Below are positions 1 to 42,700 of a stretch of DNA of 64,000 nucleotides, in pieces. Each line of letters begins with the position of its first letter. Position 1 is the first letter of the stretch. The position numbers and the translations under genes are program-made. The DNA is taken from the NCBI GenBank assembly GCA_007449985.2, contig VIIQ02000571.1, forward strand, positions 62,001 to 126,000, in the 5' to 3' direction. Source of the stretch: Desmodesmus armatus (Eukaryota; Chlorophyta; Chlorophyceae; Sphaeropleales; Scenedesmaceae). Under the pieces are notes generated by a model that did not search any database, was not told the DNA's origin, and worked only from the letters and a program-made list of their open reading frames with translations.

Positions 1-158
1 CAGCAAGACCACGACCAGGGGGCCGTGGGCTCACCGCCTGTCGTGGCACTCATGTCGCGCCCGTCTGTTTGAAACCCAGTATGACACTGGCACAGCAAAC
101 AAGGTTGTATCATGCGTCTGCTTCTTGTTGGTTAATTTCCACCTATCTTCCCCTGCAG

Positions 159-2189: not shown

Positions 2190-5100
2190 TCACCGTAATG
2201 TAAACACACCATCCCCTCCTCCCCCTCCGCCGCCACCCCCACCCCCTGAACCCGCCCCCACCCCCACCACAACTTCCGGTGCATCCGCCCCTGCTGCCGG
2301 CAACGGCTGGAAATAATTCAACTCCTCATCCAATGGTACATAAGCAGCACCTGCTGACCGGCCCCCTCCTAACCCCGCCCGCCCCCGCCCCGTCCACTCG
2401 GCCACCTTGTCCCCTATCAGCCCTAGTAAGCTACTGCCGAAGGACTTGACAGACCCTGCGAGGTCTGAAACCTGGGCCTTGGCTGCTGGCGTGGCTAGGA
2501 AGTGGTACCAGGCCCCGAAGATACCACCCAACACGAGGAGGACCACTAAGAGGACAAAGGAGCCGGAGGCTTTGTGCTGACGGCCTCCTGAGCCACCACG
2601 AGGCTGCACACCAGGCTTGGACCCTGCAGCAGGGTACACAGCGTGCACACAGAAAAACACGCGTGATGTCGGTGTGCGACAAACCCTAAACCCTGAAAAA
2701 GCAGGGGGGGTGGGGTGGGGCGGACCCAATCCTGGCGTGAGTGCCCTTCTGCTACAAGGCAGCTAAGGCCATCTACACAACACCCCACCCCCACTAGCCC
2801 TCTTACGATCGTGTTTGTGCATCTGGACCCCAAACCCCACCAGAATTTAGTCTTGGAAGTTCCAACCCCCCTCAGAGCCCAACACAAAAGTCACACCCCC
2901 GGACTCCCACCCCACCCATTCGCAAAATGAAGTCCAGCACAAGGATCCACACAACCCACAGCACAGCAGCCCTGTGGCCCGTTCACCTGGGTTTAGTGCA
3001 CCCTTGCCGTCTGTGTCTGGTATGAGTGCGTTGAGGCCGCTGTTGCACAGGTCACCATGCACCAAGCGCTTGCCGGTGCTGCTGACATAGTAGCCACCCT
3101 TGTTGATGGAGGGACAAGTCGACAGCTTCTCCTGAAGCAGCACAGACAGGGTGGCAACGGGGCAGCCGCAGTTACGTCACGTGCACACACCATGCACACA
3201 CCATAATGGAGGGCAGGGGGGGGGGGGGAGGGGGGGGGGGGGAGGAAGGCAGAGGGGGGGGGGGGGAGGAGGAGTCGGGGGCGGGGGAGGAGCCACTCCC
3301 CACCGCTCGAGACGCCAGGACAGCTTCTCCTGCACCAGCACAGGCGAGCAACGAGGTGGCAACGAACGGGATAAAGGTAACAAGCACACACCGGAATGAC
3401 GGGGTGGAGAGGGCAGGAGAGTGTGAGCGGGACATGTCTTTGTCACGGGACACGTCAACAGCTTCTCTTGCATTGGAACAGGCAAGCAGCAAGGTGGCGA
3501 CGACAGATACACTACTAACCCTTGACCGTGTCCTACTGTCCTGCACACCCTGTCCCACATATCCATACACACCTGCGGCAGTGCTTTGCAGGTGCCGTCA
3601 GCGCCTGCCACGTATCCATAGTCACACTCCACGTCAGCTGCAGTGCAGGCACAAGGAGTGACCGCGGGCTCAGGGCGCTTGTAGTCGCCACCCTGGACGC
3701 ACGCAGCGTCCTGCTTCCGACGAGTGAACTGTCGCTGAGCACCTGTGCAGCAGGAAGGGCACAACCGGCAGGCAGGCAGGCAGGCAGGCCAGCGTTTGGG
3801 CGAACGGGCAGGCTAGACAGGGTGGCCCACCCTGGGTTTAGGGTTTACGTGCCCGGTACGTGCCCGGTACTTAGGTGTACGTAAATGCAAATCTAGCCGG
3901 GCTAGATGTATCTAGCCGTAACCTTACCCAATCACATTGCATCGGCATGCACAACCTCACCCCTCCCCCCTTGCCAAGCACAACCGGCTGCAAACGGCCC
4001 TAAAACCTAAAACCTAACCCTGACCCCTAACCACAGCGTCACCCCCATGAGCAACGTTGAACCCCTACGGAGTGCTCAGGCACAGCATGTGACAGGAAGA
4101 ATAAAAGAGACAGGAACTAATCCGTAGGTTAAATTGCGACATCTAGCCCCGACCCAACCCCAAACCCTAAACCCTAAGCCCGAACCCTTGCTCACCTAGT
4201 AAACACCGTGGTGTGCGGTCGTCAGCAGGTACAGTCCACTGCTCATAGTCGCTGACTTTGCAGGCAGGCATCTTGTCACCCATCAGCTGAGCGATGTCAA
4301 GAGCATACACAAAACCCTGACACAGCACGACACAGCACAGCACGGCACAGCAGTGGTGGCTTGTCATCCCTTGGCTGAGCGATGTGTTCCAGGAGCATAT
4401 ATGAAGCTGTTGGCACGCACAGCACAGCATAGCGCGGCATAACACGTTGCTGACAAGCATGGGGCAAGTGTAGCTGCAGCCCCGGACAGCTGCCAGGTGC
4501 AGCAGTAGCCCAGTTGATATAACGCGCTGGCATACACGCTGCAGCCCACAGAAACAGCATGTGTCAGTCACTGACTGTTTGTGGTACCAAGCTCACGCAC
4601 CTCAATGCCGGACCGAGTGTCGGATGTGTCGTACGCACACTTAGGGTTGGCGGTCTTTCGGCAGGCCTTGCCATGAATGAGCACCTTGGGCCGCTGCCCA
4701 TCAGGCTCAATCCTGTAGGGAGCAGAGCAGAATGGGATAAATGATTGAATGATGGAGTTGGACTCTGTGCATCTGCGTGATGAGCTTGCTGGAAAAGTGT
4801 GGGATGATATGAGCAATGACACTCAGTAGGGCACAGGTCAAGGCTGAAGGGTCCCTTGAATGGCACAACATCGACGGTTCGCACGCCCACAAAAACCGAA
4901 TCTCACTTTGCAGCTAGTTCATGAGTCTCTGGCTGCCTTGTCACTGTTCAAACCAGTGACCAGCCAACAGGGGGAGTGTACTGATTGAGGTACAATGTAC
5001 AAGGAAACAAACGCCTCAGCAGTCCAACAGTGCAGCAGTGGCAGGTGGCCCTCACCTGATGTTCTCGACATACATAGCTGTCTGCAGCGGGACTGTCCGC

Positions 5101-8100: not shown

Positions 8101-11100
8101 CCGCAGTACTATAACATGCACCACCATCATCACCACTACTATCCAGGGTCTTCTCCCTGTCCACACGCACCTGCAAGTTGCCCAGTGGAGTCTTGACCAG
8201 GTAGTCAACAATCACCAGAGCTCCCTGACCATCGTGAGTCTCCAACAGTTCATAGCCCTCTTGCTGCAGCACAACACATATCTCCTTTCATTATTCTTGA
8301 TTTTTTTATCATTTATTCTTGATTGACGCACGCACTTACACCCAACCTTGGAATGTCACAACATTGGATGGTTGATGCATTGGCTGGATGGCACTCCCTG
8401 TGTCTCCACACAAACAACACAACAATCTAGTGATTAGCAGGATAACCCTAAACCAGGTGCTGGCCACATTTTGGGATTGGGATGTTGGGCGTGGTTTCTT
8501 ACTGACATCAGCTCCGGCCGCTAGATAGTAAGGATTGCCCAGCACCTGCGATCTGTACGTGTGGCCAGCCACTGTACCCCCCCCCTCCCCTCGTTGCCCA
8601 AGAAAAACAGTATGGGCTACATGGGCCTCAATAGGCCCGGTGGTTTTCGGCACCCGCTTACCCGTAGTGCCACAGGGAGGCAAGCCGCCTTGAAGTGAGC
8701 TCCCCCATCCTCCGATGTGTGTAGGGTGATGCCTGGCACACCTGCAGGCAACACATGACACCGTGACAGGAGTGAACTGACATGAATGCTGCTGCAGGGG
8801 TAGCTGGGGTTTGTTGCAAGTGCATGGGCCAGAAAAAGACCATGACAACGTAGGCAGCCGACAAGGTGCCAACCAGCCCAAACAGGAAGCCTTTGCGGTC
8901 CTGGAAAATACAGAATAGGCTTGCATGCTCACTGTGCCACCAACCCCCCTCCTCCTGCACGCTGTCCCCCCCCTGATATCCACTGTGCAAAACCCACCCA
9001 CCCTCCCCACGACCAGATACGTACTGGTTATTCCTCTGATTTTGGGGCACGAGGGGGGGTATGGGACATACCCCCCTGAGGGGGGTGCGCATATCCCCCC
9101 GAGGCGAAGCCGAGGGGGGATATTCGCACCTCCCGAGGGGGGTAGGGCCCATGCCCCCCCGAGGGGCCCAAAATCAGAGGGATAAGAAGCTTATCCCATG
9201 GATTGAGGGCGCGTCCAATGCAGCCCACTGCTGCTCATCAGAACTGTCCCCAGCTGTCCCCTGACGAGTCCAGCATGTGCAATATATCTCAGAAGGTGGT
9301 GTGCAGCCTTTTATACATCCAAAACCCTCGCCCTTACGTCAAAAAACGCTCAGCAAAGCTCACAAAACCCTGTTGGTGGATTCAGCACCTTGAAATCTCG
9401 AATGTGCATGGTGCCCTTGTGGCCCACTGGTTAGAGTTTTCCCCTACAGTCTGCAAGGTTGCTGGTTAGAATCCTAGCGGTGGCAGAGTGTGCACTTGGG
9501 CGAGGAGCAGGCCAGCATGTCAATAGAGTGGTGTGTGTAGGGGCTGGAGAGGAATATGGAAGGATCAGGGGAATATGGGCGGTGCAGGAAGAATATGAGA
9601 TATATTTTCGGTCGAATATGGGGGCAATATGAACAATCCATGGGATAAGCACGATATCTGCTGTGCCCCCCCCCCCCTTGCCCTGGCCCCGTTGCCTCAC
9701 CGGAAGGGTCGATGGTGCGTGTGTGCCCATCAAAGTCCACGGGGCACCTGTTGCTGACAGCCAGATAGATCTGACGGCCCAGCAGCTCAAACTGGTTCCC
9801 ACAAGGCACCTGGACGCCAGCACAGAATACCAGGGGCACAGGCAGCGCAAACAAACAGGTATATAACACACATAGACATGATGATGGTCAAACTTCACAG
9901 GGTTGAGGCATTAGGGTTTACAGTTTCCTAGACCTAGCAATTCATAACCCACCGACCCACTAGGGAGCCAGGAGCTGTTATATAACATGTATGAGCCGCA
10001 TGCACAGAGGATAACACAGGAGACATGCATCCCACCAACTGTTGCCCACTATCGTTGAGTTTGATAGCCTCACCCTCAGTCTACTGCATGCTATAAAAAG
10101 CTCCAAAAGCTTCAGCTCTGCCACACCAAACAACACCCACCCTTTGCTTGATGGTTTTGAACCAATCGTCGCTGCGCACAAAGTGCACATCAGGGTCCCA
10201 CGCAGTGTCCCAGTCTCCCGCCTTCTCATACATGGTGGCAAAAATTGCCTGGTCTGGCAGGTTGAGCCCGTCACAGCTGCTCTTGTGGCAGGCACCTATG
10301 GCCCAGCCCCAGTCCACAAAGCCGGCCACCTTGCCGTTGGCGTTAGCTGTGAGGTTGACCCAGGTCATGCCTGTGAAAGCATCCTGCGTGTGGTAGTGGG
10401 GGGGGGGGGGAGGTTGGAGCGGGAGGGTCAGAGTGAAGGCATGTTGGCACGGACTCCCTGTGTCTACACACTGACATCAATGTGCGGGTGGTGTTTGCTC
10501 CACAGGGGGAAGAGAATCCCACCGACTGCCACTTGAGATTGACCAGGGCACCTTGCCGTTGGCTTTAGTGCCGTTGGCATTGGCTGTCGGATTGCCCCAG
10601 GCCATGCACTGCACAGGAAATGGAAGTTGCAGTAGGAGGGTCAGAGTTGGGGCATATGTTGCGACGGACACATTGACATCAGTGTGCGGTGAGTATTAGC
10701 ATCACCAGAGTGGGGTGCGCCGTATTGAAAGGATCACTTTCGCTCTCATCCTCCGCCTCCCTTTCGACACACACCTCCCTCTCACCCCCCCCCCTGTCCC
10801 TTTCACTGCTGTCGATGGTACACCCCCCCCCCTCCCACCATGTCATTTCCACTGATGTTGATGGTACCCCCCCTCCTCCCCACACCTCTGCCACCAGCAG
10901 GTCCTGAGCACATCTCCACTTCGTCCAATAGCCTGCACCCAGGCCACTTCATTGATAGTGTTCACCCTCGTCCTCCTCCACGCCCTTCCCACTCCCACCT
11001 CAGCCCCTCCTCCCCACCCCATTTCCACTACCTCAAATGTGCAAACTTTCCCTGTACCTCTGCCACCAGCAGGTCCTGTGCGCAGTGCATCTCCACTTCG

Positions 11101-12403
11101 TCCAACAGCCTGCAGCCAGGCCGCTTGGCTCGCGCCACCACCCAATCAGGGCGTGTGGAATGTGCCCTCAGCACTGTGCTGGATCCCTTGCTGGCTCCGG
11201 GGTTGATCATCACCCCCCGCCCCTTTCCCACTCAGCACCTCACCCCTCCTCCATGCCCTTTCCACTGCCTTCAATTGGTGCAAGCACCCCCCACCCCCCC
11301 CCCCCACCCCCCACCCCCCACCCCACCCCCACCCCACCCCCAAAGTACCTCTGCCACCAGCAGGTCTTGTGCGCAGCGCATCTCCACTTCATCAAGTAGC
11401 CTGCAACCGGGCCGCTTAGCTCGCGCCAACACCCAATCAGGGCGTGTGGGGTGTGCCCTCAGCACTGTGCTGGATCCCTTGATGCCCCCAGGGTTGGTGT
11501 GGGGTACCAACGTCTCCCCAAAGTCGCTGCTGGTCCTGTTGTTGCAGAGGATTGGAGGAAGGCAATTGCAGAGGATTGGAGGAAGGCAAGGGCGGTTGAA
11601 TGAGGGTGATACTCTGACATGCTGTCTCAATGCAACGAGGATGGTTCATGCCAGTGTGCTTATGTTGATAATACAATTTGACCCTGTGACTCATATGGAA
11701 AGCAAGCCAGGCTATGTGTGTGTGAGATGCCTACCACATGTGGTCTGCTGCGCCCACGAAGATGATTTGGTTGGGTTTGGTCTTGTGTGACAACACCTGG
11801 GTGATGGCAACCACCTGGTCTGACTTGATGGAACCTGCAGGAGTGGAAGGGGGTGGGGGTGGGGTGGGGGTGGGGGGGGGGGGGGGGGGGGTGGGTGGGT
11901 GGGTGGGGGGGGGGGCAACAGATGATAAGACAGGGCGGATGGAGGGGCTGGGGTTGAGGGAAGACAGTGACAGCACCTGGGTGATGGCCACCACCTGGCC
12001 AGACTTGATGGAACCTGCAGGAGTGGAACGCGGCGGGGGGGGGGGCAGGTGGTGCGTAATGGACAGGAGAGGGCATGGCGGGGTAAGCTCAGTGAATGAA
12101 GTAACGGCAGAGGTGTGTGAGCGCAGGAACGTGAGGTGTGTTTTGGGTGGGGGTGGGGGGCAGAGAGACGCAGGCAATCGAAGAGGAGTGGGGTAGGAGG
12201 CTGCAGGGGAGGCGGAGAGGGGAGGAGGAGGAAGAGGATGAATGACTGGGGCTGTTGACATGAGGGAGGATCAGAGGAGGGGTAGACTCTACCCCTGTAG
12301 TAGACTGCATCAATGGTGCAGGGAACAATCAGCTACAGCTGCTTTAATGCTGTGGCACCAGCCCTGCAACACCCAGTGGCTGCTGCTGCTGCAGCCCACA
12401 CAA

Positions 12404-12450
<47 letters not shown>

Positions 12451-12556
12451 GACAGACGCAAGCCTCAACCTGCTGCTGCTGCTGCTGCCGCTGCCGCTGC
12501 TGCAGACCAGCACCTGCCCCCACTGTCCCTACTGCTGTGGCCAAGGCAAGCCTCAA

Positions 12557-12588
<32 letters not shown>

Positions 12589-13893
12589 ACTAGGTCTCAC
12601 TTTTGAATCGCTCGCTGATGTCCTCAAAGGTTGACCCGCCATCCTTTGAGCGCCATATGGCTGCCTTGACGGTGATCAGGAATACATGCTGCAGCACAGA
12701 TGTGTGATAACAGAGTGACAGATTGAGTGATATAAATGTGAGCGTTCAGCTGTTTAAGAGTGATTAGGAACACACGCTGCAGCACAGCAGCAGACAGCAC
12801 GCAGGCTCGACAGGTGTCACAAATGCAAGCGTGCAGGTAGCTGGGGGTTGGGTTTGCTGCCCTGCAGGGAGGCCAACCAGCCTCATGGTTGGTTGGCCTG
12901 GTAAAACCCTGGTGAAACCCAAGCATAAAAACCAGCCTCATGGGATCATGCAGCAACATGAGTCTGAGCACACAGGTGGTGAGAACTCCGTCCAGAATAG
13001 CAGCAAGCAACAGGGAGATAGCTGCTGCAATGTATCAGGGTTGAGGATTTAGGTAAGGGTAGGTACCCTTGAACCCTTTGACTGGGGGGCAGGGGCACCA
13101 TGACAGTGGCTACACGACCATACATGACAGGTGCCAGCTGCCTTACATGCAATGCAGAAGGCATGTTGTTTTGTTGGTGAAAACAGTGGCAACTGCATTG
13201 TGCAAAATGCAATCATGATGCAATCATGATGCAATGGCAGTGTCCCACACCGCTTCCGCATATGGATGTTATAAGGGCGGGGTATACTGCTACCATGCTG
13301 CAGACAACATGCCCAGGCATCTGCTCTGCCCGCCTCAAAAATCTCTGCATTGCTGCCCCAGTTGCGGCTGGCCTGCTCTGCTGGTGTCCTAGCCATTCCA
13401 CCCTAGTACCAATGGGGTGAGTGCTGGCTCTTGCCCTTGTAGTGCCCTTGTAGCCTTATCTATTTGGTATTACTACTGAGTTCTGCTGGGCAAACTGTCT
13501 GGCCAGAAGATGACATGTGGGTGTGCATGCTGTGCATCAAGGGATTGCCGTACCTGATCGTCTGCTCCAGCCCACTCCACCCCTGCTGCTCTCGAGTCCA
13601 GAAGGGTCTGCAGATGAAGCAGAGCCAGACATGGAAGTGTCTTGAATGCTTTCATATAGTTTGTGATGCGTGATAGAGTCTGCTGCAGAAGGAATGCATG
13701 CCACTGCTTGATCCTGAGGTTTGCTCACCGGTTTGAGCTCAGGGAAAGAGCCAGTGTCACAGGAGCTTTGCAGGTGCCGCGCGTGTGCTGCTGCTGCCCA
13801 GTCAGTTAAGTTTCTGCCTTGAACAGAAGGGTAGAGGCTGGAAAGGCTGACCAGCAGCAGCAGGGTGCCAGCTGCAGCTGCAGAGAGCTGCAT
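2190..13893 (-). CDS. VPS10-domain (sortilin-type) vacuolar/endosomal cargo receptor, 20 exons, 918 aa
   Basis: Type I membrane receptor expected to carry lumenal cargo from Golgi to endosome/vacuole. Exons in transcript order: 13893-13729, 13607-13554, 12688-12601, 11834-11735, 11535-11349, 10383-10141, 9809-9701, 8741-8662, 8263-8171, 7629-7510, 7179-7120, 6787-6652, 6058-5932, 5581-5446, 5132-5056, 4712-4601, 4316-4196, 3742-3573, 3131-2987, 2623-2190. All phases match (2757 nt). Residues 1-26 are a signal peptide. VPS10 propeller blades follow (IWRSKDGGSTFEDI, HTSEDGGAHF, TKMTFNGGGTWQQI, CTWLSFDGGFTW, SYDYGRCW), with CRLHLHG and APGLLVASGNV signatures. The 10CC cysteine module includes CLLGAQRQF, CACTAADVECDYGY and GGYYVSSTGKRLV. 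The TM helix is about 797-816. The 102-aa cytosolic tail has YVPL (869-872, a YxxPhi-type signal), the acidic DEEL and a poly-Gly run. Land plants use VSR receptors for this job. Exon structure is inferred from splice signals and was not checked against RNA. Confidence 0.9.
3209..3292. repeat. G-rich homopolymer tract (C-rich on the transcribed strand)
   Basis: Almost uninterrupted runs of G with a few A lie in the intron before VPS10 exon 2987-3131. On the transcript this is a C-rich pyrimidine tract. Similar tracts lie at about 6445-6610, and poly-C tracts on + lie in RecQ introns (35050-35077 and before most array acceptors). Confidence 0.7.
3315..3505 (-). repeat. Two decayed copies of the start of VPS10 exon 2987-3131
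   Basis: About 3315-3365 and 3453-3505 each repeat, with substitutions, the exon's 5' end plus the intron sequence before it (real junction 3117-3160: AGCTTCTCCTG, then GGTGGCAACG). Both keep an acceptor-like AG. They sit upstream of the true exon in the same intron. The true exon is the one that keeps phase with its neighbours and encodes the 10CC module. Confidence 0.7.
6445..6610. repeat. Poly-G and (TGG)n low-complexity tract, internally duplicated
   Basis: Two near-identical blocks (GTTGATGGTGGTGG..., then poly-G) start at about 6481 and 6530, in the intron upstream of VPS10 exon 5932-6058. On the transcript strand they are C-rich. No coding is supported. Confidence 0.7.
7002..7040 (+). 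repeat. tRNA-like head (Pol III A-box), probable SINE remnant
   Basis: CCATAGCTCAGCCGGTAGAG closely resembles the 5' half of a tRNA (D-arm, A-box consensus TRGCNNARNGG). The rest does not fold as a tRNA: no anticodon arm or CCA-side stem can be paired, and the only B-box-like string (about 7081-7091) is poor. A tRNA-derived SINE fragment is the best reading. Confidence 0.35.
8352..8415 (+). repeat. Dispersed repeat A, copy 1
   Basis: TTGGATGGTTGATGCATTGG and the following CACTCCCTGTGTCTCCACACA recur at about 29742-29806 and 30052-30112 in the same orientation, with few differences. This copy lies in the intron just upstream of VPS10 exon 8171-8263. Function unknown. Confidence 0.7.
9021..9649. 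mobile_element. Composite repeat with terminal inverted repeats and tRNA-like Pol III boxes, copy 1
   Basis: This element in a VPS10 intron recurs at 47781-48395. It has two parts. The left part (9021-9185) is a large imperfect palindrome: CCTCTGATTTTGG at its left end is matched by CCAAAATCAGAGG at its right end, around GC-rich blocks of the GAGGCGAAGCCGAG type. The right part is bounded by a 16-bp inverted repeat (9190-9205 and 9634-9649) and contains an A-box (TGGCCCACTGG, 9420-9430) and a degraded B-box (GGTTAGAATCC, 9464-9474). It encodes no protein. A non-autonomous element of SINE/MITE character is inferred. Confidence 0.65.
10538..10617 (-). repeat. Decayed copy of the start of VPS10 exon 10141-10383
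   Basis: Read on the minus strand this gives a corrupted version of the exon opening (GMTWVNLTANANG becomes MAWGNPTANANG). Flanking intron sequence is duplicated too (GGAGGGTCAGAG, then TGACATCA.TGTGCGG in both copies). The frame breaks further on, so it is a pseudo-exon. Confidence 0.7.
10886..11215 (-). repeat. Two extra tandem copies of VPS10 exon 11349-11535
   Basis: Copy B (11058 to about 11215) keeps an open frame nearly identical to the true exon (CAQDLLVAE, RPGCRLLDEVEM) and a GTAC donor, but lacks the exon's first segment and has no acceptor AG at the right place. Copy C (10886 to about 10945) is shorter and more decayed but still keeps a GT donor. Spacing is about 290 and 170 bp. 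The true exon supplies the TSSDFGET blade start and the correct phase. Confidence 0.75.
11971..12014 (-). repeat. Duplicate of the start of VPS10 exon 11735-11834
   Basis: The first ~43 bases of the exon (SIK, then QVVAITQVLS in translation) and its CTCCTGCAG acceptor are repeated about 180 bp upstream in the transcript. The copy then runs into unrelated sequence, so using it would break the VPS10 fold. Confidence 0.75.
12405..12450. repeat. (CTG)n trinucleotide run
   Basis: A pure (CTG) run of about 15 units lies in the VPS10 intron upstream of exon 11735-11834. Shorter CTG runs lie at 12379-12391, 12470-12487 and 12559-12583. They are non-coding here, but the same triplet encodes poly-Gln and poly-Ala in the neighbouring genes. 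Confidence 0.85.
12754..12776 (-). repeat. Short copy of the start of VPS10 exon 12601-12688
   Basis: On the minus strand GTGTTCCTAATCACTCTTAA mirrors the true exon start GTATTCCTGATCACCGTCAA (VFLIT in both), and the GCTGCAG acceptor is duplicated too. The similarity lasts only about 23 coding bases. Confidence 0.6.
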
Positions 13894-14349
13894 GGGCCCT
13901 GTTTGTGTGTCTCGCTACTGCTGGTCCAGGTGTGTGGGGACTTCAGATACTCCAGGACGCACGTCACCGATACCAAAAAGCTTTGATCGCTGGTCAAAAT
14001 TGTTCTGCGTGTTTGCCGGGCATGCCAGACAGGTCAGGACGGAGCTCTTGCACTTTGTGATGGAGTGAGTGACTCCGGTGATGGACGTATCAGGGTTTCA
14101 AACGCCTATGACGGGTCCTATCGTGGTCTCGGATCATACAAGCAAGCCCCTTGCCCTCGCGTTGCTGTGAAGTATTCAAGCAGCACTGACAGCCAAAGCC
14201 CGAACTCTGCCCACAAAGCAAACCCAAACCTTCCAGCCGAGCACTCGCTGTGCCTTTTCATACATGTGCTTCACCTGAACTGGTGTCCAGCCACCCTGCG
14301 CGACAGCACTGCTGTACCCAACAACAGCAACACAGCAACAACAGCAATC
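13894..14349. promoter_or_regulatory. Shared head-to-head promoter region of the VPS10 receptor and SPICE1-like gene
   Basis: About 456 bp separate the divergent start codons (VPS10 ATG ending at 13893 on -, SPICE1-like ATG at 14350 on +), so both 5' UTRs and promoters must fit here. No convincing TATA box was found. An open frame on + from 14065 runs into the second gene, so its start could be farther upstream. Confidence 0.5.
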
Positions 14350-17300
14350 ATGAGACGTGTGCACAGAAAGCCATACTACCCGCCCCCACTTCACCTCAGC
14401 AAGAAGAAGCACAAGGACAAGTCTAGTCAGCCCTTGGTGCAGCCAGAGTGGGATGTGAGTACTGCATGCTGCACTGTCAGCGACACAGCAGCAGCACACG
14501 CAACACGTGTACAACGCCAGCACCATGTGCTCATGTTCCCTCCTGTCTGCACATCTTCGTCCTGCAGGACACCGTACATGACCTGACTGCCTTGAAAGCA
14601 TCGCCTGATGACCTGGTGGGTTGTCTGGTTGGTTGATGCTGGTTCCGCTGCTGTTGCATTTGCCTGACCACCGGCCATCGGTGCTAGCACGCGCTGGTAC
14701 ACCAGCAGGCCGTTGCTGTCACTCAAAACCAAATGGTGGGCTGCTTTTCTGCATGCTGCAGTTGAAGCGCAAGCTATCCAGGACATCTCACAACCAAATG
14801 GGCATAGCCCTGGTGACCCAACTGCGACGCTCGGCCCGCAGCGGTGCGTGCACAATGGGCCAAGCCAACACACGTTTGCAAGCATAGTGATTCAAGCCAG
14901 CACATGCTGACGCACAGCACACCCCTCCTGGCCCTTCCTTGTGTGCTTGAGAGCTGTGCCAACCTAGCATGCTCAGCCCCACAGTAGCACACATCCGCTG
15001 CACAGCACATATGGTGTTGATTTGCCTGGCTTCCTTTGCGTGAGCTGTTCAGAGTGAACTCATGAACATCCAGTGTAACACTCATAGCCCCAGCTGGCCA
15101 GCCAGCTGCTTGCTTCAGCTCTGCAACCCTGCTGCTGGAACGGTCAGCCGTGCTGCTTACCCCTTAGCCAGTGGCGACCCATCAGCGCACCAGCATGCCA
15201 GCAAGCTAGCTCACCATGCCAACCTGATTGACCAACATTGCAAAAACGACGTCTCACACAACAAGTGTTGGCCTGCCTGCTGCTTCTGCACAGGTCAGCA
15301 GGATCGCTACACCCCCAGCGCTTCAGATGGTGACGCCTCTGACACCGACAGTGAACCAGCCTGCACCTCTCCTCACAGCCAGCAGCAGCAGCAGCAGCAT
15401 GGCTCAGCCTGCCACCAGCAGCCATCACCCTCTCATGCGGGTCAGCAACAGCACGGGGGCCTAAGGCAGCAGCAGTGGCAGGGACAGGAGCGGCGGCAGC
15501 AGCAGCACTGGCAAGGGCGGCAGCAGCCACTGCGGCAGCAGGCACCTGCCAGCCGCTCTACTTCTGCGCTGGCCCAGTATGCTTCCAGCACAGCAGACAG
15601 TGAGGAAGATGTTTGCCAGTGGCACAGCCCCATCCGGCCAACACATCAACAGCAGCAGCACGAGGGGCGGCCAGGTCTGCAAGATGTCCGCAGCAGCAGA
15701 CAGCAGCACAGCACAGCAGCTGGACTGACAGAGCTCACAGATGCAGCCGTGCGGCGCCTGCAGCAGCTGGAGCAGCAGCAGCATGCCGAGTTAGACAAGC
15801 AGCACGGCGGCAGGCTGTCTGTAGATGCAGACGCATTGCAGGTCCTGTTGGATAAGGTGGGACCCAGCCAGCTTTTGGGGTGGATCTATGGGTCCAGGAG
15901 TGACTATGGACAGGGTCCAGTGCCGTGCCAGCAGATGCCAAGGCTCGTGGCAGTTTGGTTTGGTGCCGAGGAGATGTACAAGCACTTGTTGGAACTTCAG
16001 CGGGGATCAAACATACATATGGATGGAGCTTGCGACCAATGCTGCTGTGTTTGTGTGTAGACACGTCCGAGAAGCCCCAAATGCACGACATCATACGCTT
16101 GTCCTGTGTCTTGTCTTGTGTCCCTGTCCTTGTGTGTTTGACCAGATCAACTTGTTAGAGGCACAGCTGGGGCAGAGGGACCTGCAGCAGCAGGAACAGC
16201 AGCAGCCCCACCCCAGCACGCCAGGGCTGCAGCAGCAGCTGTCAGCAAGCCAGCAGCAGCTGCAAGCCACACAGCAGGAGCTGCGCGTGCTGCGGGACGA
16301 ACACAGGCAGTATGTTGCACATACCAGCACGCTGCTCACGCAGCTGCAGACCCAAGTGCAGCAAGTACTGACAGGCCAGCACATGCTGCCTCCTCCCGTG
16401 CCGTCGTTGCACGCGCAAGTGCAGCCACAGCACCAGCAGCCAATGTCGCTGCCAGCGTACAGCAGCCGGCTGCGACCTGCTACTGTTGGTGGCCAGCAGG
16501 GCCTACAGGCTGCTGCTGCTGCTGGTGGTGGAGATGCTGTGGGGGTTGCCGGTGCTGCTGCTGCTGCTGCTGCTGCAGGCGTGAGAGACAGCAGCACTGA
16601 CAGGCTCCTGCAGATCAGCAGCTTCATACGGCAGCAGCTGCATGAGCAGGAGCAGGGAGCAGCAGCACAGCCGGGGTTTAGTGGCAGCACAGGGCTCAGC
16701 ACAGGCACCAGTGGTCGGGCTCCAGGCATGTGGCCGGCAGCACCCAACCGCAGTGACAGCACCAGCATGCAGCAGGAGCAGCAGCCAGCCTATACTGCTG
16801 CTGAAGCCACCAAGGGCGGGGGGTCCAGTGACTCTGCCAGCAAGTTTGCAGCAGCAGGCAGGGAGCCAGCAGGGAAACAAGTGACCGGTTCAGCCTCGAG
16901 CTGCAGCAGCCCTTCACGCAGGAAAGCAGCGCTGCTGTTCACTCCAGCAGTGGCTGACTCTGTGTCGCTGCCAAGCTATGCGGCGATGCGGCAGCAGGGC
17001 AGAGGGCCGCTGGGGTCACCAGCCACAGCCAGGGGTCCACTTGGCCAGCAGCAGTGGTCGCCGGGCGCAACCGGCAGCCCTACAGGGCTAGCTAGCAGGG
17101 GGTGGAGGGGGCATGACAGCGGCTCTCAAGCAGCAGGAGAGGCAGTACAGACAGCAGGCAGCATGGGTGGCTCAAGTAGCCCTAGCAGGGGTAGGAGGGG
17201 GCATGACACATCAAGCGGGGGCCCTCGAGCATCAGTCGGCAGCCCCCAGCGGCTGCATGCAACACACATCCCACGGCCGGTGCCCATGCAGGGCATGGAT

Positions 17301-20922: not shown

Positions 20923-20953
<31 letters not shown>

Positions 20954-29445: not shown

Positions 29446-30112
29446 GGGCTTTGTTGTAATAAGATCGCAGAGGCTGAAGCTGCCGTGTCTGTCAACGATT
29501 TGCTGTTTGGGCTTTGTTGAGCTGGTGTTGAACAGATGAGTTACAACCATCATGGTGTATGTTCCTCTGTTCCCTACCTGTAAGATATCCTACAAGCTTG
29601 GGCTGTGGGTCCTTCAAGGTGAATTCCCCGGTCTGGTTGATGGCACTAACAGAGTGTGCAGGAATTGTGGCCCCACAAGTTGTAGATGGCCTCACGCAAG
29701 GGCACTCAGGACACCTTTGCACTCTTAACCCACACACTTTGGACTGTGACAACGTTGGATGGTTGATGCATGGCTGAATGCACTTCCTGTGTCCACACAC
29801 ACTGCTAGGGCTGTGGGTCGTTAGTGAATGCCCCGGTTCGGTCGATGGCACTAAGAGAGACCTGTGCAGGAGTTATGGCTCCAATCATTATGGGTGGCTA
29901 GCCTCACACAAGGGCACGCAGGACACCTTTGCACTCAAATCACCACACACTTTGGACTTTTGCACATGCATATGCATCACTTACCACTTGTTTTCGTTGA
30001 CAGACACGACAGCTTCAGCCTCTGCGATCTTACTACAACACACACTTTGTCCGGGGCAACTTTGGATGGTTGATGCATTGGCTGGATGCACTTCCTGTGT
30101 CCACACACACTG
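29446..30112. repeat. Cluster of dispersed and tandem repeats between unknown gene and Ycf66
   Basis: Repeat B (GCAGCTTCAGCCTCTGCGAT core) lies inverted at about 29446-29497 and direct at 29966-30045, so it brackets the cluster. A tandem duplication of about 210 bp starts at 29601 and 29809 (GGGCTGTGGGTC..., CACACACTTTGGACT). Repeat A copies lie at 29742-29806 and 30052-30112. No protein is supported. Confidence 0.7.
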
Positions 30113-31605: not shown

Positions 31606-31637
<32 letters not shown>

Positions 31638-33210
31638 GCCCAGGGTGCTGACCTGTCAGCGGCTGGGGGTAGGTAGCCTGGTCGGGTTGCGTTTGTGAAG
31701 TCCTGCTGCTGCTGCTGCTGCTGCATGGGAGGCATGTCCTGCAGGGGTGGCATCTGCTGGCCCTGCATATTGGCAGGGTCCTGCAGCAGCAGCAGCAGCA
31801 GCAACAGCGGCGGCATGTCAGGCAGCGTGGAGTGGCAGTAGGCAGAGACAGCAACTGACGTCGCAACACCCACACCCACATGACACAACCTGAACCCCTT
31901 TTCCAAACCACCTGATACTCAAAGCTAGCCCACTTCCTCCTGCACCACCCCAACACCCAGCTTGGATGCGTCAAGCATCTCCTAAACACCACACCCACAC
32001 ACCAAGACCTGCACCCCGTACTCAACCAACGCCAGTTCACCTCGCCCTGCACCACCTCAACACCCAGCTTGAATGCTTCAAGTATCTCCTAAACACCACA
32101 CTCACACAACAAGACCTGAATCCCACACTTTTACCCAGAATTCAAAGCCAGCTCACCTCCTCCTGCACCACCTCAGCACGCAGTTTGAATGCTTCAAGTC
32201 CATACCAAAACGCCACCGATGTGGTCAGCGCCTGCAGCAGCACCAGCAGCAATACAGCAGTGACTGTTCACTCCATGAAGCAATGCATAGGGAACAAGCA
32301 GGGGATACACAAGGTTTATGCACTCCCGGTTACGTAATCACACGCAACTTTGGCCTTACCTGGCAGAGCAGCAGCAAGGGGTCCAGGCGCCAACCCTGGA
32401 AGATGAGTGTGCTGCCGACAATGGATATCATGGCAGCAACCACAATGTCGGCATCCCGGGACACCTCACGCTGCATGTTGCGCACCTGCAGGCAACCAGA
32501 TGCACCACCCCACCCTCAGATGCATACCCAGGCTCTGTGAACACTGTGTTGATCTTGTGTAGGTCAGTATGAATACCATGCAGATAAGTGTGCGCTCAGT
32601 GTTGTGTTGGACACTAAGCTTGATGACAGACGATACAATCATCATGACAGTCCGAAACACTTTCGTGAGGGCACACTTTTGTGTGTATTTCAGTAAGCAT
32701 ACCATGCAGCTGGTGTCCTGACCAGACGAGAGCATAGCCACATGCTGCAACAGCTGACTACAGCCGTACAGGTGGAGCAGCCCGTGCCTGATCCACCTCC
32801 AACAGGCAGTGCAGGTTTCGTCAACTTAACAGCAGCTGCAAGAAGGCACTGATGCGACTGTTGAATGTTTAAAAGCATGCCTGTCCTGACGATTTGATTG
32901 GGGCCCAACTCACTTGCAGCAAGGCAATGCCACAGCCTATCAGCGTGACTCCCAGCACAAGAGATGGGCTGGCAAAGTCAACATTGACCATGGCCAGTGG
33001 TGGCATCACACGGCGCTGCATGCTGCCGAAGCGGCGGCGGTGCTGCAGCTGAGTGCGGCTTCTGATACAGGTCTGCCGCAACTGCACTGATTTGCTGCTG
33101 CTGGGTGAACCACTGACTGATAGGACAGCAGTGCACAGCAGTACCCTGCTGTGTTGTGCGATCTGTTTGCCGTGCATGTGCTGGACTGCTTGATGCTGCA
33201 AACGAAACAT
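30884..33210 (-). CDS. ycf66: Chloroplast Ycf66 family protein with long Gln/Gly/Pro tail, 4 exons, 464 aa
   Basis: Nuclear gene for a protein found in cyanobacteria and plastids and linked to thylakoid/photosynthesis function; its exact role is unsettled. Exons 33210-32914, 32485-32360, 32231-32157 and 31780-30884 join in phase (1395 nt). Residues 1 to ~73 are Ser/Arg-rich with no acidic residues, typical of a chloroplast transit peptide. The Ycf66 core starts at MVNVDFASPSLVLGVTLIG (74 on), then VRNMQREVSRDADIV and the signature LIFQGWRLDPLLLLCQ, then LEAFKLRAEVVQEE. Two to three hydrophobic segments are present. The last exon (298 codons) is a low-complexity tail of poly-Gln, GGYG and PPxx repeats ending YEQVDDWE. 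Intron 3 contains two decayed copies of the end of exon 3. The gene is divergent from RecQ. Confidence 0.85.
31934..32085 (-). repeat. Two decayed copies of the end of Ycf66 exon 3
   Basis: Copies at 32041-32085 and 31934-31978 repeat the exon's last ~45 bases and the intron after it (period 116 and 107 bp). The nearer copy keeps a GTGAA donor; the farther one has GTGGG. The exon peptide AFKLRAEVVQEE is recognisable but corrupted in both. Confidence 0.75.
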
Positions 33211-33720: not shown

Positions 33721-36700
33721 ATGACCTGGCAGCATTTGAAGCCCAGAGTGCTGGACGTCCTCAGCCAAACCTTTAGTGGGTAGCACCTCACCCCCCCCCC
33801 TCCTGGGACCCCCCCCCCCCCCTTCTATCCACCACCCAACCCACACTAGACAAAAGTGCCCAGATCACGACCCAGACAGACATCATGTTGCCGTAAATGT
33901 ACAATGTACAGTGGTGTTCCTCGCTCCCAAGCCCCACCGGCACCTTGAAGCAGCTTCCACACTGCTGCCGTACCCCCTGCCCCCTCTCATGTTGTGTACA
34001 GGATTCGACGGCTTCAGGGGAGTACAGGAGGAAGCTGTCAAAGCAGCACTGGAAGGTATGCAGCAGCAGTGGCAGCATCAGCACTGTTTATGACCCTGGC
34101 AGCAGCAATCGCCCAGTCCACCATGCCTCACTGAGGCATGTGGTGACGATTACTGAGTACTCTTCCTCACCATATGGCAGGCATGCATGCCTGGTAACCT
34201 ATGGCTGTGGCAGTGATTGCTAAGCAAAGCATCGCATGCAATGAGGAATCTGTGATGGGGGCTGTGTGGGTCTTGCTTGCAGGCAGAGATGCTTTCATAC
34301 TGATGCCCACTGGTGAGCCGACCGGGTCAAGAAACTGCTGGTGTGTGTGTGGGGGGGGGGGGGGGGGGGGGCTGGGGAGACTGGTGTGCTGGGTGGCAAC
34401 TTGTCGTTTGCACTCCGTCGAATGGGATAGCTCGTGATTGAAGGAGCGAATAAGTTGGTAACTGCCTAGCTAGTGGTGGTGGTGGTGGTGCTTTTCTGGG
34501 GGGGGGGGGTTGATTTGGCATCTGTGGGGGGCGAATTGCACAGGGCTCCGCGCCATACAACAGCACTACGATTTGTGCGATGTATGTGTGTGCAGGAGGA
34601 GGCAAGTCGCTGTGCTATGCACTCCCTGCTGCTGTCACTGGGGGCCTGGTGTTGGTGGTGTCTCCCCTCATTGGTGAGTGGGCAAGAGTGAAGTGAAGTT
34701 ATGCATGAGGGCCAAAAGCATCAGCACTGTAGGCCTTCCGGAGGCAGACGGTGCACCCCATGCGACGCTATGTGACCCCTTGTGACCCATGTCGACGCCT
34801 TGAGTACCCATGCCCACCACAGCCCCCCCCCCCCTCCTCTACATGCAGCCCTGATGCAGGACCAAGTGTCAGCACTGCAAGCCCACATGTGGCCCCATGC
34901 CCACCACACGGCCCCTCCTTTCTCTACTCGCAGCCCTGATGGGGAACCAAATGTCAGCACTGGAGGCCACTGATGTGCTCCCATGTGACCCATTGTGCCG
35001 CCACGTCTCTCTGCTGCAAAGCCCCCCTGCTTGTTGCCGTCTCTCTGCCTCCCCCCCCCCCCCCCCCCCCCCCCCCGCCCTGCTTGCAGCCCAAATGCGG
35101 TTCCAAGTGTCGCCGTTGCAAGCCCACACGTGGCTCACGTCCCCCATGCCCTCCCCCCCTTCTTGCAGCCCTCATGCAGGACCAATTATCACCACTGTCA
35201 GCCCACATGTGCCCCATGTCATCCCCCTTCCCCTCCTCACACCCCCGTCTTCTTGCAGCCCTGATGCAGGACCAAGTATCAGCACTGAAGCCCCCTCATG
35301 TGCCCCATGTGCCCCATGTGAGTAACCCCCCTCCCCCCTCATCTTCTCATCTTGCAGCCCTGATGCAGGACCAAGCGTCAGCACTGCAGGCCCCCAGTGT
35401 GCCCCAGGTGACCCTATCTGAACCCCATTTGAACCCTTGCAAAACTCCCCCCCCCTTGTCTTGTTGCAGCCCTGATGCAGGACCAAGTGTCAGCACTGCA
35501 GGCCCCCAGTGTGCCCCAGGTGACCCTATCTGAACCCCATTTGAACCCTTGCAAAACTCCCCCCCCCCTTGTCTTGTTGCAGCCCTGATGCAGGACCAAG
35601 TGTCAGCACTGCAGGCCCCCAGTGTGCCCCAGGTGACCCTATCTGAACCCCATTTGAACCCTTGCAAAACTCCCCCCCCCCTTGTCTTGTTGCAGCCCTG
35701 ATGCAGGACCAAGTGTCAGCACTGCAGGCCCCCAGTGTGCCCCAGGTGACCCTATCTGAACCCCATTTGAACCCTTGCGAAACCCCCCCCCCCTTGTCTT
35801 GTTGCAGCCCTGATGCAGGATCAGGTTTCAGCACTGCAGGCCACCGGCGTACCAGCTGACTACCTATCAAGCACACGCACTGCAGCAGAGAGGCGTGCCA
35901 TTCTGGAGCAGCTCACCCCTGCTGCTGCTGCTGCGGCGGCGGCTGGCGGCGGCAGCAATGGCAGCAATGGCGGCAGGCTGGCGTTGCTGTATGTCACCCC
36001 TGAGCTGATTGCCACTGATGGGTGAGTGCAGAGCAACTGCGTATCTGTGCTGTCTTTGCTTCGACGGGCGTGGGTGGAGGACGACATAATTTCGTATAAA
36101 GCCGGGGTGGGGGAAGTGGTCAGTTTATTCAAACCTGTCGTTGAGTGAAGTCGTGTGCACAGGAGCCGCGTGCAGAGCTGTGCTGCCTTCTCAGCAGTCT
36201 TCTCACTCATGACAGTCTCAGCTGAGATCAGTAGCGGCACCTGCACCCCCATCGGCAGTCAAGACGTGCCAGGCGGTCGTTTCACTCAAGCAGCTGGCCT
36301 GTACACTGCTTGGCAATATACCACGCTTTTCCCAAAGTGTGATGCTTTGCCAGCCTAGTGTTGTGATTCCTTGATCCATGCAATATGCTGTGATCAGGTG
36401 CGTGATGAAGTCGGGGCTGTATGCAGCAGCATACGCATACCCGACACCTGCCGGGGCACAGCCATGCAGTAGGTGCCTTATGCCAGCAAATCATAACTTC
36501 CCCATTAGTTGCAACTGGTAGGCAGTCATAAATTGCAACTGGTGATTAGTTGCAACTGGTAATCAGTTGCAACTGGCAGGCGTGCTAAATGTTGTAGAAG
36601 TGCCTTGGTCCCACCACTTGTCCTGCTGCTGCACACACTGTGCTGATGTGTTGCCCCCACCTGCAGGTTCAGGCAGAAGCTGGCTGGCCTGCACTCCCAG

Positions 36701-39700
36701 TGCCCTGGCTATGTGAAGCTGGTGGCAGTGGATGAGGCACACTGCATCAGCCAGTGGGGCCATGACTACCGGTGGGTTTAGTAATGGTTTAGTATTAATG
36801 TCATAACGTTATTACAAGCTTTGCCCTTGCGCAATCCCTTGAGGATAGGTGTGCATGTGTCTTTTTCTAGTAGGTGCATTGCTGACACAGCTTGCACCTG
36901 GGTTGGATCTGCAGCTGTGTGCGCATGTGTATATTGGCAGAACGTAGGGCTGGCGCATTGGCACGTGATTGTGCATGCTGCTGCACGGTGCTGTGCACAG
37001 GCTGCATGAGACGGCTTGGGCGGCTGTCTGTGCGCTGCACTCTTCATGCCACAAATGCAGGCCCACTTACCGAATGCTTTCAAAGCTGAGGACGGTGCTC
37101 AAGGGAGTGCCGTGCATGGCGCTGACGGCAACAGCAACACTGCAGGTGCGCACAATCACCATCAGCAACACTGCAGGTGTGCGCCAATAGCAGCAACAGA
37201 GCGCAAGGCAAAGCTACCTTCCAGCATGATGCTGCTTTTTGCGTTAGGCTGCGGATAGTGTCAATTTTAGGCGGAGAGGCTCGCGGCGGCTGTCATAGCA
37301 CGATTGAGAGACAGCCTGTACATTGGATGTATGCTGCTTGAAGCATGCTGAACGCCAGCTGATTTTCAACCCCCAAACCTTGAACCCTAAATCCTATTGC
37401 ACCCTTCACCGGGCCTCACAGGGCGGTCGGTGTTGCAGAGCTGGCCGGTCCATTTCAAGGACTCACCATTGGTGGCAGAATGCTTATCAAGAGAATGCTT
37501 ATCAGTATCCATTTGGATGCTCTTGACGATCACCGCCCCTGTGACCCTACTAAGTGAATGATATGATATCAAAGTGTCCTGCAGGTTTGGCAGGACCGTG
37601 CTGGCAACACTCACTGCATGACATCTTTCCTCATCACTGAGTGTATATTTCTCTCCTGCAGGTTCGGCAGGACATCATCAGCAGCTTGAAGCTGTCACAG
37701 CCAGCTGTGCTGACCAGCAGCTTCAACAGGCCCAACATACACTACAGCATTCTACTGCTGGATGTACAGCACCCAGCACCAGAAGCTGCAGCAGCACACA
37801 GCACAGCGGCTGCCGCTGGTGCTGTGGCAGCAGGGAGTGCTGCCGGTGGCCGACCAGGGATAGATGACGTGATGGGTGGTGATGTGGATGACGTCATGAC
37901 GGAAGATCTGGATCATGCTGGGTATGGTCACTTGCTGCAGCTGCTGAAGCCGACAGGGAAAGCACGGCAGGGTCAACGGGCAGGGGGCCAGCACCTGCAG
38001 CAGCAGCAGCGGCAGTGGCCTGGACCCATTGCTATTGTGTATGCACTCAAACGGTGGGTGGTCTGGGTGCTCGCACCTGTACTTGTGATGCTTTTGATAC
38101 ATGGCCGGCGTGTGTGACGGCCACAGGGTGTGACCATCATGGGGCCCACCACGGCGAGTGCCTGTCACGCCAGGAGGGAGTGCTTTGCGCGTAGCACATC
38201 AAGTGCAAAATCTGCTGCTGCATGCTGCAGTTGCCGGCTGGTGCAGAGAGCTCTCCTGAACATGTAGGCTTAGCCAACCCTGTTGGTGCCCAACACCGGT
38301 GCACTCCCTACCCGATGTCAGCTACATGCCCTGCGACTGCTTGCAAAATCCATGTAACACCTTCCGTTCCCTCGCAAATGTTGCTGCTGCCATGTGTGCT
38401 GACAGGACAACGGTTTGATGCCCTCACTGCAGTACCTGTATTTTGCTCTTGTAAATGCTGCTGCCTGGTGCGGACAGGACCACGGTGGATGGCCTCACCA
38501 GGCGGTTGAGGGGTGAGGGGCTGGCAGCAGCAGCCTACCATGCAGCGCTGCCTGCATCAAACCGTGCTGACGTCCTGCAGCAGTGGAGGGCTGGCCAGCT
38601 GCAGGTGGTGGTGGCTTCTGTTGCATTCGGGATGGGCGTGGACAAGGGTGAGATGACACTATTTGATGTTTATGTTGGGTTTTGGGGAAAGGGGTACTTA
38701 ATTGGGTACATGTGAGGCATGCAAGCAGTCCTGTCTGATGCACAATGGTAGAATGTCAACCCTAGGCATGCAGCCCGGCTGCAACACAGCAACTCGCAGG
38801 CAGGAAAGTGTGCTGACGTCCTGCTGTTGTACAGGCAGGGCAGCTGCAGATGGTTGTGGCCTCTGTAGCGCCAGGGATGGGTGGAAACAAGGGTATGTGT
38901 CAACCCAAAACATGCAGCCGGGTTGAAGATACTAGTGCAGACCCCTGCCTCGACGGCATGCAGCTAGTGTTGCAGGCTCACATACCTTAGGATTGCTGGC
39001 TCTTGCTAAGCATTCAATGAACACAGGGTGTGTGCACAGGGCACATGTGTGCGCGGTGCGGGGTGATGCCTCCAGGGAAGAGGTGAAATTGTTACTTCAT
39101 GACTGCACAGCATAGCAGGCTCTGCTACTGGTAGGCTGTTCACACGCTTAGCAAGCGGTGCCACATGACGTAATGCCTTGCCTCGTTCGCTCCATACGGG
39201 GTGCTCAGGCTCGGCCTGAACCATGTATACTATTACGTAATAGTACCAGTACCAGTAACAGGAATGCCCTATGCGGTTTGGCTCCTGAAAGGGCATTTAG
39301 GCGAGGCCCTGATCCAGTCAAGTAGAGATAGAACTGCTCGCACACATAATCTTGCGTGTCTGGGTGCCTGCAGGTGACATAGAGCTGGTGGTGCACTACA
39401 ACCTGCCCAGGTCCATTGAGGGCTTCTACCAGGCAAGCTCGCTACTCCCTGTGTGGTAGCATGCAGCGTGCATGGCTAGCATGCATGCAATCGTCAACGG
39501 CATCCACAGCATACCATCAAAGCAGTAGTCAGGATGGTCCGCCAAGGACAGGCAAGCTAGCTGGTTCCTGTGTGTGGCACTGGCTGCCAGCACGGCGTGC
39601 GGTGCACACGTCAGTGCAACATCGGGTGTTTTCAGTACTTGGGCCTGCTTCGGTTGCCGTGCACACAACCAGCCTGCCTCTGCCTCCATACGGGTATTTG

Positions 39701-42700
39701 TCTCAAAGCTAAGCGTTGAAGCCTTCACCCTGTGAGACAACGTGCTGCTACTGCTGGGCGGTACTTCCCACACGCTATGTACTGTGTACACCGGAAGGTG
39801 TTGAGACAGCGGCACTGCTCAGGCTGATTTGTCGCTGTCGTGCAGGAGAGTGGGCGTGCTGGCCGCAACGGCGAGCCTGCGTGCAGCGTGCTGATGTACG
39901 CCACCCGCGACAGGAGGTGAGGCGGCCGGGGTCAGTGCAAGCATGCTGTAGAACCAACCCAGCTTTGTGTGACTGCCTGCGACCATCCGATGGAGCTGGC
40001 AGCTCTCTGATGCTTTGGCACAGGCCATGTGCGCCCCGATTTCTATTTGTGGCTATTTTCGAAGGGGTAGCGCGTGTGAGCGGTCCAAACGGCCGCCATC
40101 CTTTGCTGCTTGCGGCTCTCTGGGCAGGGGTCAGCTAGGTACAGTTAAGCTGCTTGCGATGGGCAGCTTGGCTGCTTGCGATAGTGCAGCTTGGTATAGC
40201 AAGTTGCACTACCATTAGTTCGAAACAATTGGCATGACATGCTGCTGCACCTTTGTGTACCTGCAGGCGCATGGACTTCATCCTGCAGCAAGACGCCAAC
40301 AAGAAAGCCGGCCGCAAGCGCAAGAAGCAGGCAGCTGGTGCAGCCACCGACCCAGCAACGGCAGCAGGCAGCACTGCCCCCGCTGACAGTAATTCAACAG
40401 ACCCTGCAGTAGCTGCCGCTGCTCTGCGTGCGTTTGGCGGTGTGGTCGATCTGTGCTGCACAGCAAGCTGCAGGCGGCAGCGGTTGCTCAGCCACTTTGG
40501 AGAGACGCTGTCGGCTGCGCAGCAGCGGCAGCAGCAAGGGGCGCGCTGCTGTGACTACTGCGATAGTGCAGGCAGGGTTGAGGCAGCGGTGCAGCAGCTG
40601 CAACAGTTTGAGCAGCAGATGGTGCAGTCGCGGTTCAATGGCGGTGCTGGTAGGGGTGGTCAGGGTGCTGTCAACAAGAGGCGCAAGGCTGCATACGGGT
40701 ATGAGGCCCTTGGGTTTGGGAGCTATTCAGAGGATGATGAAGACGATGAGGCAGCAGGCTCAGGTAAGACGGATGTGTTCGAGGCAATGTTGGTAGGTTT
40801 GATGCTTGGCGCCTGCACCAGTGAACCACAGCATCCTTGAGGGAGTGTTGACATGTTTGATACCTGGGGCCTGCACCAGTAGACCACACAGCATGCTTTG
40901 AGGGAGTGTTGATATGTTTGAATGCCTGAGGCCTGCACCAGTGGGCCACACAGCATGCTTTGTGCTTCAGTCGTTCGTTCTGACATGCGTGTTGCGAGGG
41001 CAGGCAGGGGAAAAGAGGGGGAAGGGCGCAGTGGCCACAGCTGTGCAAGAGCAGGCGCGTCTTGATCAAGGGGTCCCATAGGATATGGGTGGCCACCGCC
41101 CCAGCAAGACGCTGAGCATGTAGCGTTTGCGTGACGTTGAAATGTTTACGGTCCCTCCTTTGAAATGTTAAAATGTCCCCTGCAGACATCGACGTCGCTG
41201 ATGATGCTGATGCTCAGGAGGTGGCAGCAGCTCTAGCCGCAGCAAAGCGTGCAGCAGCAGCAGCAGCAGCAGCAGCAGCCGCAGGCAAAAAGCCTGTGCA
41301 CACCGGCACCACCACCACTGCGGTGGGTGTGGCAGGGGGCGGTACTCATCACGGTGGTGGTGGTGGTGCTGGACGGCCTGCTGCTGGGACTGATGCTTTT
41401 TTGTCAGCCATGCTGAAGGCTGAGCAGGCACATGAGCGCAGGGCGGCAGCGGGAGGGGCGCAAGGGGGTGGGGACGAGCTGCAGAGGCTGATGGCACAGA
41501 AGGGCAGGGCTCAGCAGGTGGGTAGTTGTGAAGGTCTGGCTTTGTGGCTTCACAGATGGGGGGAAGGGGGGATAGGAAGCTTGTGGAGTGGCCATAAGTG
41601 ACCACAGTTGCAAGCAACCAGGGTGGTTGGGTGCCAGGGTGTTAGAGGCTGCTGGCACAGAAGCATAGGGCCCAACAAGCACTATACTTGGGCTGTTTGG
41701 GTTTTTGGGTGACAGGAGGGTGCTGAATGTGTGGACTGGCCACAGTCCTAGCAGCCAGGATGGCATGGCGCCAGGTGGCCAGTCGCTGCCGCAGCCTGCT
41801 GTGGTCTTGTAAGGGTAGCAGCTAGCACATGGGAGCATGGTGGGGGGAGGCCTGGCAGGGGCCACGGCCTCTGGTCACAGGGTGCGGCAGAGTAACAGCC
41901 AGGGCTGAGCAGGGAGGCAGAGTGCCAGCCAGGCCGAGGGAGCTCCTTCAAGGTGCCCTTGGCGGTTGTCACAGTGTTGACAGGGAGTCATGCCAGGACA
42001 AGCAAGGGTACACAGACAAGCAAGGGTGCATAGCTCGGGTTGACTGTATGCAGAGAGTAGCTGAAGGGTGTCACACCAAGCTTGGCAAGCTTGGTCTTCT
42101 AAAGCTGGCAGCAGCTTATTCACTGACATGCACTACTCATGGACTCCCACTGTAAGCAGCCTGTACTTCGTCCAAGTGCCGTTGGAGAGGCAGGGGGGGG
42201 GGGGGGGAGTAGCTCAGCATGATAGACATGCACATCCCTCTGAGCCAGTGGTTTCCCATAGGCATACTTACCAACCGTTGGTCCAGTAAGTTACTGGACG
42301 AGGATCGCCACTATTCACTGTAACCTGCGGCATGCCTGCTGTGCCTCAGGTGACCCCTCTAACGCCAGAGATGCGGACCACCCGGCAGTCCAAGCTGGCA
42401 GCAGTCATCAGCAGCAATGCCAGCCTACAAGCCAGCCAAGAGCTGTGCCAGCAGCTGGCTGCAACCTATGAGGCCTCCGCTGCAGCTAGCTGTGGTGGCG
42501 ACGCCAACGCGCACAAGGCACGTATGCTGCAGCTGCTGTCTGGCTGCAGGGCGGCGACAGGCTGGCTGGATCTGCCGGAGCTGCAGCTGCTGTCAGGGCC
42601 AGCACTGGTGGCAGCGCTGAGGGCGGGGGTGGCCAGGGTGGTTGCAGCTGCTCAGGAATGTGTGAAGCAGCAGCAGACGGGCAGCTCGAGCCTTCCTAAG

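Follow-up and report, generated by a model that had tools for sequence, protein, structure and literature searches.

Why do introns in one stretch of the Desmodesmus armatus genome hold copies of the exon edges that border them? The stretch, hereafter the window, comprises 64,000 nt (contig C542, 62001-126000, ∼57% G+C) of a 115.8-Mb genome in 831 contigs, and its nearest protein relatives come from Tetradesmus/Scenedesmus-group algae. A first-pass annotation had listed thirteen exon edges with extra copies in the adjoining intron, in genes that it called VPS10, SPICE1-like, F-box, Ycf66 and RecQ, and had ascribed them to a local mechanism acting at splice junctions. We found that the copies are genuine repeats, but that junctions are copied no more often than points inside introns. 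The copies very probably reflect ordinary local tandem duplication, blind to junctions and tolerated where splicing removes the extra copy.

Copies of exon edges in the adjoining introns

The RecQ exons (plus strand) were assigned via splice sites and conserved motifs, and the protein shares 59% identity with Tetradesmus obliquus homologue P0001. The VPS10 exons (minus strand, as is the Ycf66 gene) were located by tblastn of four homologues together with splice-site scores (64% identity with T. obliquus; a metagenome protein reached 87% over 49% of the query). The remaining window genes were modelled with a splice-aware hidden Markov model (HMM), trained on sampled sequence of the same genome, and outside the window gene models come from the HMM alone. 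The HMM recovered most of the RecQ and VPS10 exons placed by other means. It also took several RecQ repeat units for exons, a sign of how closely these copies resemble exons; the window tests use a curated exon list, so that the RecQ pseudo-exons are excluded. Two earlier rounds of gene models, in which a single gene extended over most of the window, were replaced by the HMM models. The VPS10 edges described in the first-pass annotation as 5′ edges (exons 2987, 10141, 11735 and 12601) were taken as acceptors 3131, 10387, 11834 and 12688. SPICE1-like, F-box and Ycf66 are labels of that annotation, not confirmed here; Pfam three-frame scans of 10000-29991 (plus strand) gave no match at E ≤ 0.01, and an Rfam scan of the window gave no match.

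Each edge (60 bp of exon plus 60 bp of intron) was compared with the rest of its own intron and with 300 dinucleotide shuffles. Twelve of the 13 edges exceeded every shuffle, in agreement with the earlier view that the repeats are not chance; edge 37145 showed no excess at 60 bp (p = 0.53) and a marginal one at 25 bp (p = 0.043). The statement that each copy spans its junction held in part: 8 of the 13 alignments cross it with 5 bp or more to either side (3131, 11834, 12688, 17827, 35808, 37662, 20227 and 32157), and, apart from the weak 37145, the other four end at or before it (10387, 17 bp short; 11349, 38647 and 41517, at most 4 bp from it). By eye, the intron side is also repeated at 11349. 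Two acceptors absent from the earlier list are copied as well, 4316 (weak; score 32 vs. 31 for the best shuffle) and 38478. That the genes are five and unrelated is uncertain, with 17827 and 20227 sharing one predicted gene chain (14022-29121). The edges and their copies are as follows.

3319-3364, minus strand: copy of VPS10 acceptor edge 3131 (edge test)
4272-4439, minus strand: VPS10 acceptor edge 4316 with its weak copy (edge test; outside the earlier list)
10569-10607, minus strand: decayed copy of the part of a VPS10 exon adjoining acceptor 10387 (edge test)
10884-11205, minus strand: two copies (11054-11205 and 10884-10949) of the donor half of VPS10 exon 11349-11535, in the next intron
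11349-11535, minus strand: VPS10 exon with copied donor edge (tblastn, splice-site scores)
11787-12044, minus strand: VPS10 acceptor edge 11834 with its copy at 11967-12044 (70/78 identical)
12760-12787, minus strand: 28-bp copy of VPS10 acceptor edge 12688 (edge test)
17710-17747, plus strand: copy of acceptor edge 17827 (edge test)
20161-20320, plus strand: donor edge of the F-box gene (junction 20227/20228), copied downstream
21289-21950, plus strand: four copies of the F-box donor edge, ∼1.1 kb further downstream within that donor's intron (identities from 98% down to 85%)
31865-32216, minus strand: donor edge 32157 of the Ycf66-like gene with copies at ∼107-bp spacing
34807-35868, plus strand: RecQ array of acceptor-edge copies (exon 35808-36021), over most of intron 34674-35807
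35808-36021, plus strand: RecQ exon with copied acceptor edge (splice sites, motifs, homologues)
37577-37596, plus strand: 20-bp copy of RecQ acceptor edge 37662 (edge test)
38382-38498, plus strand: RecQ acceptor edge 38478 with its copy (outside the earlier list)
38810-38894, plus strand: decayed copy of the RecQ exon end at donor 38647
40778-40962, plus strand: ∼60-bp tandem repeat wholly within RecQ intron 40764-41185, touching no junction
41644-41677, plus strand: copy of the RecQ exon end at donor 41517, junction not crossed (edge test)

The strongest cases are the RecQ acceptor array, the F-box donor, VPS10 donor 11349, VPS10 acceptor 11834 and the Ycf66-like donor 32157. Best pairs range from 100% down to ∼70% identity, as wide a decay as had been described, and the reported maximum of nine extra copies was recovered by eye at the acceptor edge in RecQ intron 34674-35807. 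The last part of this array is a 113-bp tandem array (98%), and the F-box copy nearest in identity to its donor matches it at 98% over 160 bp. The copies are direct head-to-tail repeats at short distance, except in the F-box gene, where the array lies 1 kb away from the exon edge. Genome-wide, the RecQ unit had six matches and the F-box unit three, all at their own locus (the search skips very common words). Elsewhere in RecQ, the donor of exon 39374-39432 reads GCAAGC at 39432, and the following intron appears to be of GC-AG type.

Copy rates at junctions and at control points

Copy rates were determined in 254 kb of sequence (score cut-off of 40, introns no shorter than 120 bp), with reversed targets as the chance control, which gave 3 matches in 1,979 comparisons. 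The junction-rate, event and intron-length counts omit two sampled loci with dense long near-identical repeats (L010 and L012), five doubtful predicted exons and every exon shorter than 20 bp. In L010 and L012 such repeats occupy 52% and 65% of bases, and are perhaps transposons or satellites.

In the window, copies were found for 14/118 junctions, 16/196 intron-internal points and 7/269 intergenic points, where "intergenic" includes unannotated genes. The corresponding counts outside the window were 13/451, 27/612 and 6/333. Junctions did not differ from intron-internal points in either sample (p = 0.32 and p = 0.25, respectively), nor did they when only copies spanning the centre were counted (8/118 vs. 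7/196, p = 0.27, in the window; 6/451 vs. 14/612, p = 0.36, outside). The top class for spanning copies was that of window acceptors (6/59). Eight of the 118 window junctions were spanned by at least 10 bp, against 10.1% of window intron positions that lay under duplications. The first-pass annotation had set intergenic duplication as the yardstick for its claim: outside the window junction-spanning copies were no commoner than at intergenic points (6/451 vs. 5/333), and inside it they were (8/118 vs. 2/269). A mechanism directed at junctions is not borne out, because junction rates are no higher than intron-internal ones and the spanning share outside the window fits random placement.

The earlier view that the copies lengthen introns was upheld. 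Taking extra-copy length as the duplication footprint minus one unit, we found that extra copies accounted for 12.2% of intron sequence in the window's 59 introns, 1.2% in the 83 of sample C1b, 0.4% in the 66 of C5b and 4.7% in the 100 from the scattered loci, or 5.0% over all 308 introns. The 31 introns that held an extra copy had a median length of 492 bp when compared with 281 bp for the others; longer introns also give duplications more room, and cause and effect are not separable in this comparison. An apparent link to G/C runs of at least 8 (Fisher p = 0.002) weakened to p = 0.11 after length stratification.

Tandem duplications that are young and exact occur at C1b 2779 (73 bp), C1b 5833 (94 bp) and L007 6107 (258 bp), all three wholly within predicted introns. 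Their breakpoints share 0, 1 and 2 bp, a pattern compatible, in these three cases, with slippage, template switching or end joining.

Probable blind duplication and its rivals

We propose that stretches of ∼60-370 bp would be duplicated head to tail irrespective of splice junctions. Duplications within coding sequence would mostly be purged. Those inside an intron or across one junction would leave the mRNA unchanged while the original outer splice site is used, which we assume, so that they would survive, presumably as neutral changes, and lengthen the intron. Slippage, template switching or end joining would be the likely source. An existing array could then grow further, as in RecQ, where the final intron tail matches the preceding unit at 175/176 positions and the exon parts match at only 51/61, a contrast that further duplication inside the array would explain. 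For a unit of length D in an intron of original length I0, arithmetic gives I0-D+1 placements inside and 2(D-1) across one junction (with D = 100 and I0 = 330, 231 and 198, hence 198/429 across). The expected junction-straddling share under blind duplication is thus ∼2(D-1)/(I0+D-1), and geometry dictates that a large fraction of the intronic duplications that survive lie across a junction. Straddling copies should also remain recognisable for longer, because selection holds the exon side of the original. Among 24 pairs compared, 22 had a more similar exon part, but the intron side was padded 40 bp past the duplicated stretch and the C5b row is artefactual, so that only the RecQ pair is drawn on here.

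Placement of individual events was compared with a null in which each event was slid randomly within its own intron, with flanking-exon overlap of up to one unit allowed. Among 47 duplication events, 35 lay in introns and 19 of these spanned a junction. The 35 include some doubtful cases: one match of 26 bp (15757), another that is short (C1b 15553), a repeat within coding sequence (L011) and four events within a 5-kb "intron" of L008. With an L001 pseudo-exon removed, one L001 duplication (positions 7-271; 6 bp of contact with a donor) was counted as intergenic. Outside the window 9/23 intronic events spanned a junction vs. 6.8 expected (p = 0.16; 9 vs. 6.4, p = 0.11, in a variant with 8-bp flanks). 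Every sampled sequence except L002 held at least one local duplication family. L019-L021 (C5:400001-430000), a predicted minus-strand gene of more than 60 exons with short introns, holds one local duplication only, unlike the window.

Several observations weigh against blind duplication. In the window, which was chosen for the feature, 10/12 intronic events spanned a junction vs. 5.8 expected (p = 0.0045; 10 vs. 5.5 with 8-bp flanks), and this drives the excess among all intronic events (19/35 vs. 12.6 expected, p = 0.006; 19 vs. 11.9, p = 0.0024, with 8-bp flanks). Duplications cover far less of the window's intergenic or unannotated positions (2.2%) than of its introns, and the window is an unusually duplication-rich stretch, for which blind duplication offers no explanation. 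The presumed donor of VPS10 exon 11349-11535 scores 1.0, when compared with 2.6 and 5.7 for its copies. Genome-wide, where each splice motif has ∼14,000 sites and pair expectations were computed from single counts with even spread, donor-motif pairs numbered 49 vs. 27 expected (1.8-fold); among the 49, at least 11 have a neighbouring pair on their contig, and clustering of genes raises the count too. Acceptor-motif pairs, which favour blind duplication, numbered 175 with a gap of 60-90 bp; among the first 100 listed, 59 belong to four arrays of satellite-like repeats (C2, C5 and C117), and outside these arrays there are at most 116 vs. 102 expected, near chance. Confounded by satellites and gene clustering, the motif-pair counts bound the rate and do not settle it. 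Satellite-like repeats of ∼79 bp carrying the acceptor-like motif TTGCAGG lie at C2:568907-570253, C2:1466459-1466790 and C5:265108-266545, and a short-repeat array of TTGCAGGTTGTGTCTCC-like units lies at C117:106705-109334.

The window events and the donor-motif pairs are what a junction-directed process would predict, in which splicing- or R-loop-linked breakage, or copying from spliced or reverse-spliced RNA, places exon edges into the adjacent intron. We consider such a process quite improbable: junctions did not exceed intron-internal points in either sample, the spanning excess outside the window is not significant, acceptor-motif pairs are near chance outside visible satellites, and the three young exact duplications touch no junction. 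A reading in which some genes are hot spots, their exon edges being copied into introns beyond random placement, is also unlikely. It is doubtful, too, that under it arrays of complete pseudo-exons (in RecQ, acceptor, 50 bp and donor, repeated) serve as raw material for new exons. The RecQ units do carry an acceptor scoring 8.0, equal to the real one, and 50 bp on a donor scoring 6.2 (real-site medians, 7.9 and 6.3), and three of the four F-box copies hold a donor-like site scoring 5.6-6.0 (real donor, 5.6); judged from these sequences, exon birth from the RecQ repeat units is possible. Selection keeping copies near junctions as alternative sites or nascent exons would accord with the RecQ scores and with the HMM exon calls there, but it is very unlikely, since a 50-bp insert shifts the frame, four VPS10 and two RecQ homologous proteins aligned showed no second copy at the tested edges, and many other copies have decayed.

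Two further explanations concern the origin of the repeats themselves. An assembly artefact (collapsed or misjoined reads) would account for the few exact copies, but most best pairs are ∼70-95% identical, which is not a product of misassembly, and we regard it as extremely unlikely. Insertion of introner-like or other mobile elements is the least probable: repeats with splice motifs do occur in several introns, and 18 distant same-strand matches were found within the window, but exon sequence specific to each gene is present in the copies, and neither the RecQ nor the F-box unit had a match beyond its own locus in the genome search. Blind local duplication is the reading that we retain.

Three features of the window lie apart from these repeats. 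Pfam three-frame scans detected a ubiquinol-cytochrome c reductase hinge domain at 153-254 (plus strand; PF02320, E = 3.7e-07) and, following RecQ, a DEAD-box helicase and a protein kinase domain within 43333-54389 (plus strand). An AGGC tetranucleotide repeat (24.8 copies, 98%) occupies 62501-62599.

Known systems and meaning

Tandem duplication across an intron-exon boundary is already known, and good examples of it are found in the RecQ and F-box arrays. A potato RdRp gene gained an intron by such a duplication (PMC4974935). As there, the algal events are head-to-tail duplications of intron end, splice site and exon start, and the copy inherits splicing signals; in potato a new intron was formed, whereas in the alga existing introns were apparently lengthened. 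A review treats tandem genomic duplication as one way in which introns are gained (PMC3443670). There as here, local duplication brings extra splice sites into a gene, but the algal copies span existing junctions and sit in introns. Introner elements share with the algal arrays the presence of repeated DNA with splice signals in introns; introners are dispersed over many genes, in contrast to the locus-confined RecQ and F-box arrays (PMC9860276). No report of such duplications in the introns of this alga was found among the literature listings and abstracts searched, which is not proof of absence.

Blind local duplication combined with selection on coding sequence provides a null model that already predicts junction-spanning copies in introns, and such copies are by themselves no proof of a splicing-linked mechanism. 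The finding points to algal genes whose introns have become noticeably longer through local duplication, and to arrays of decoy splice sites that would be a natural test of how the correct site is chosen.

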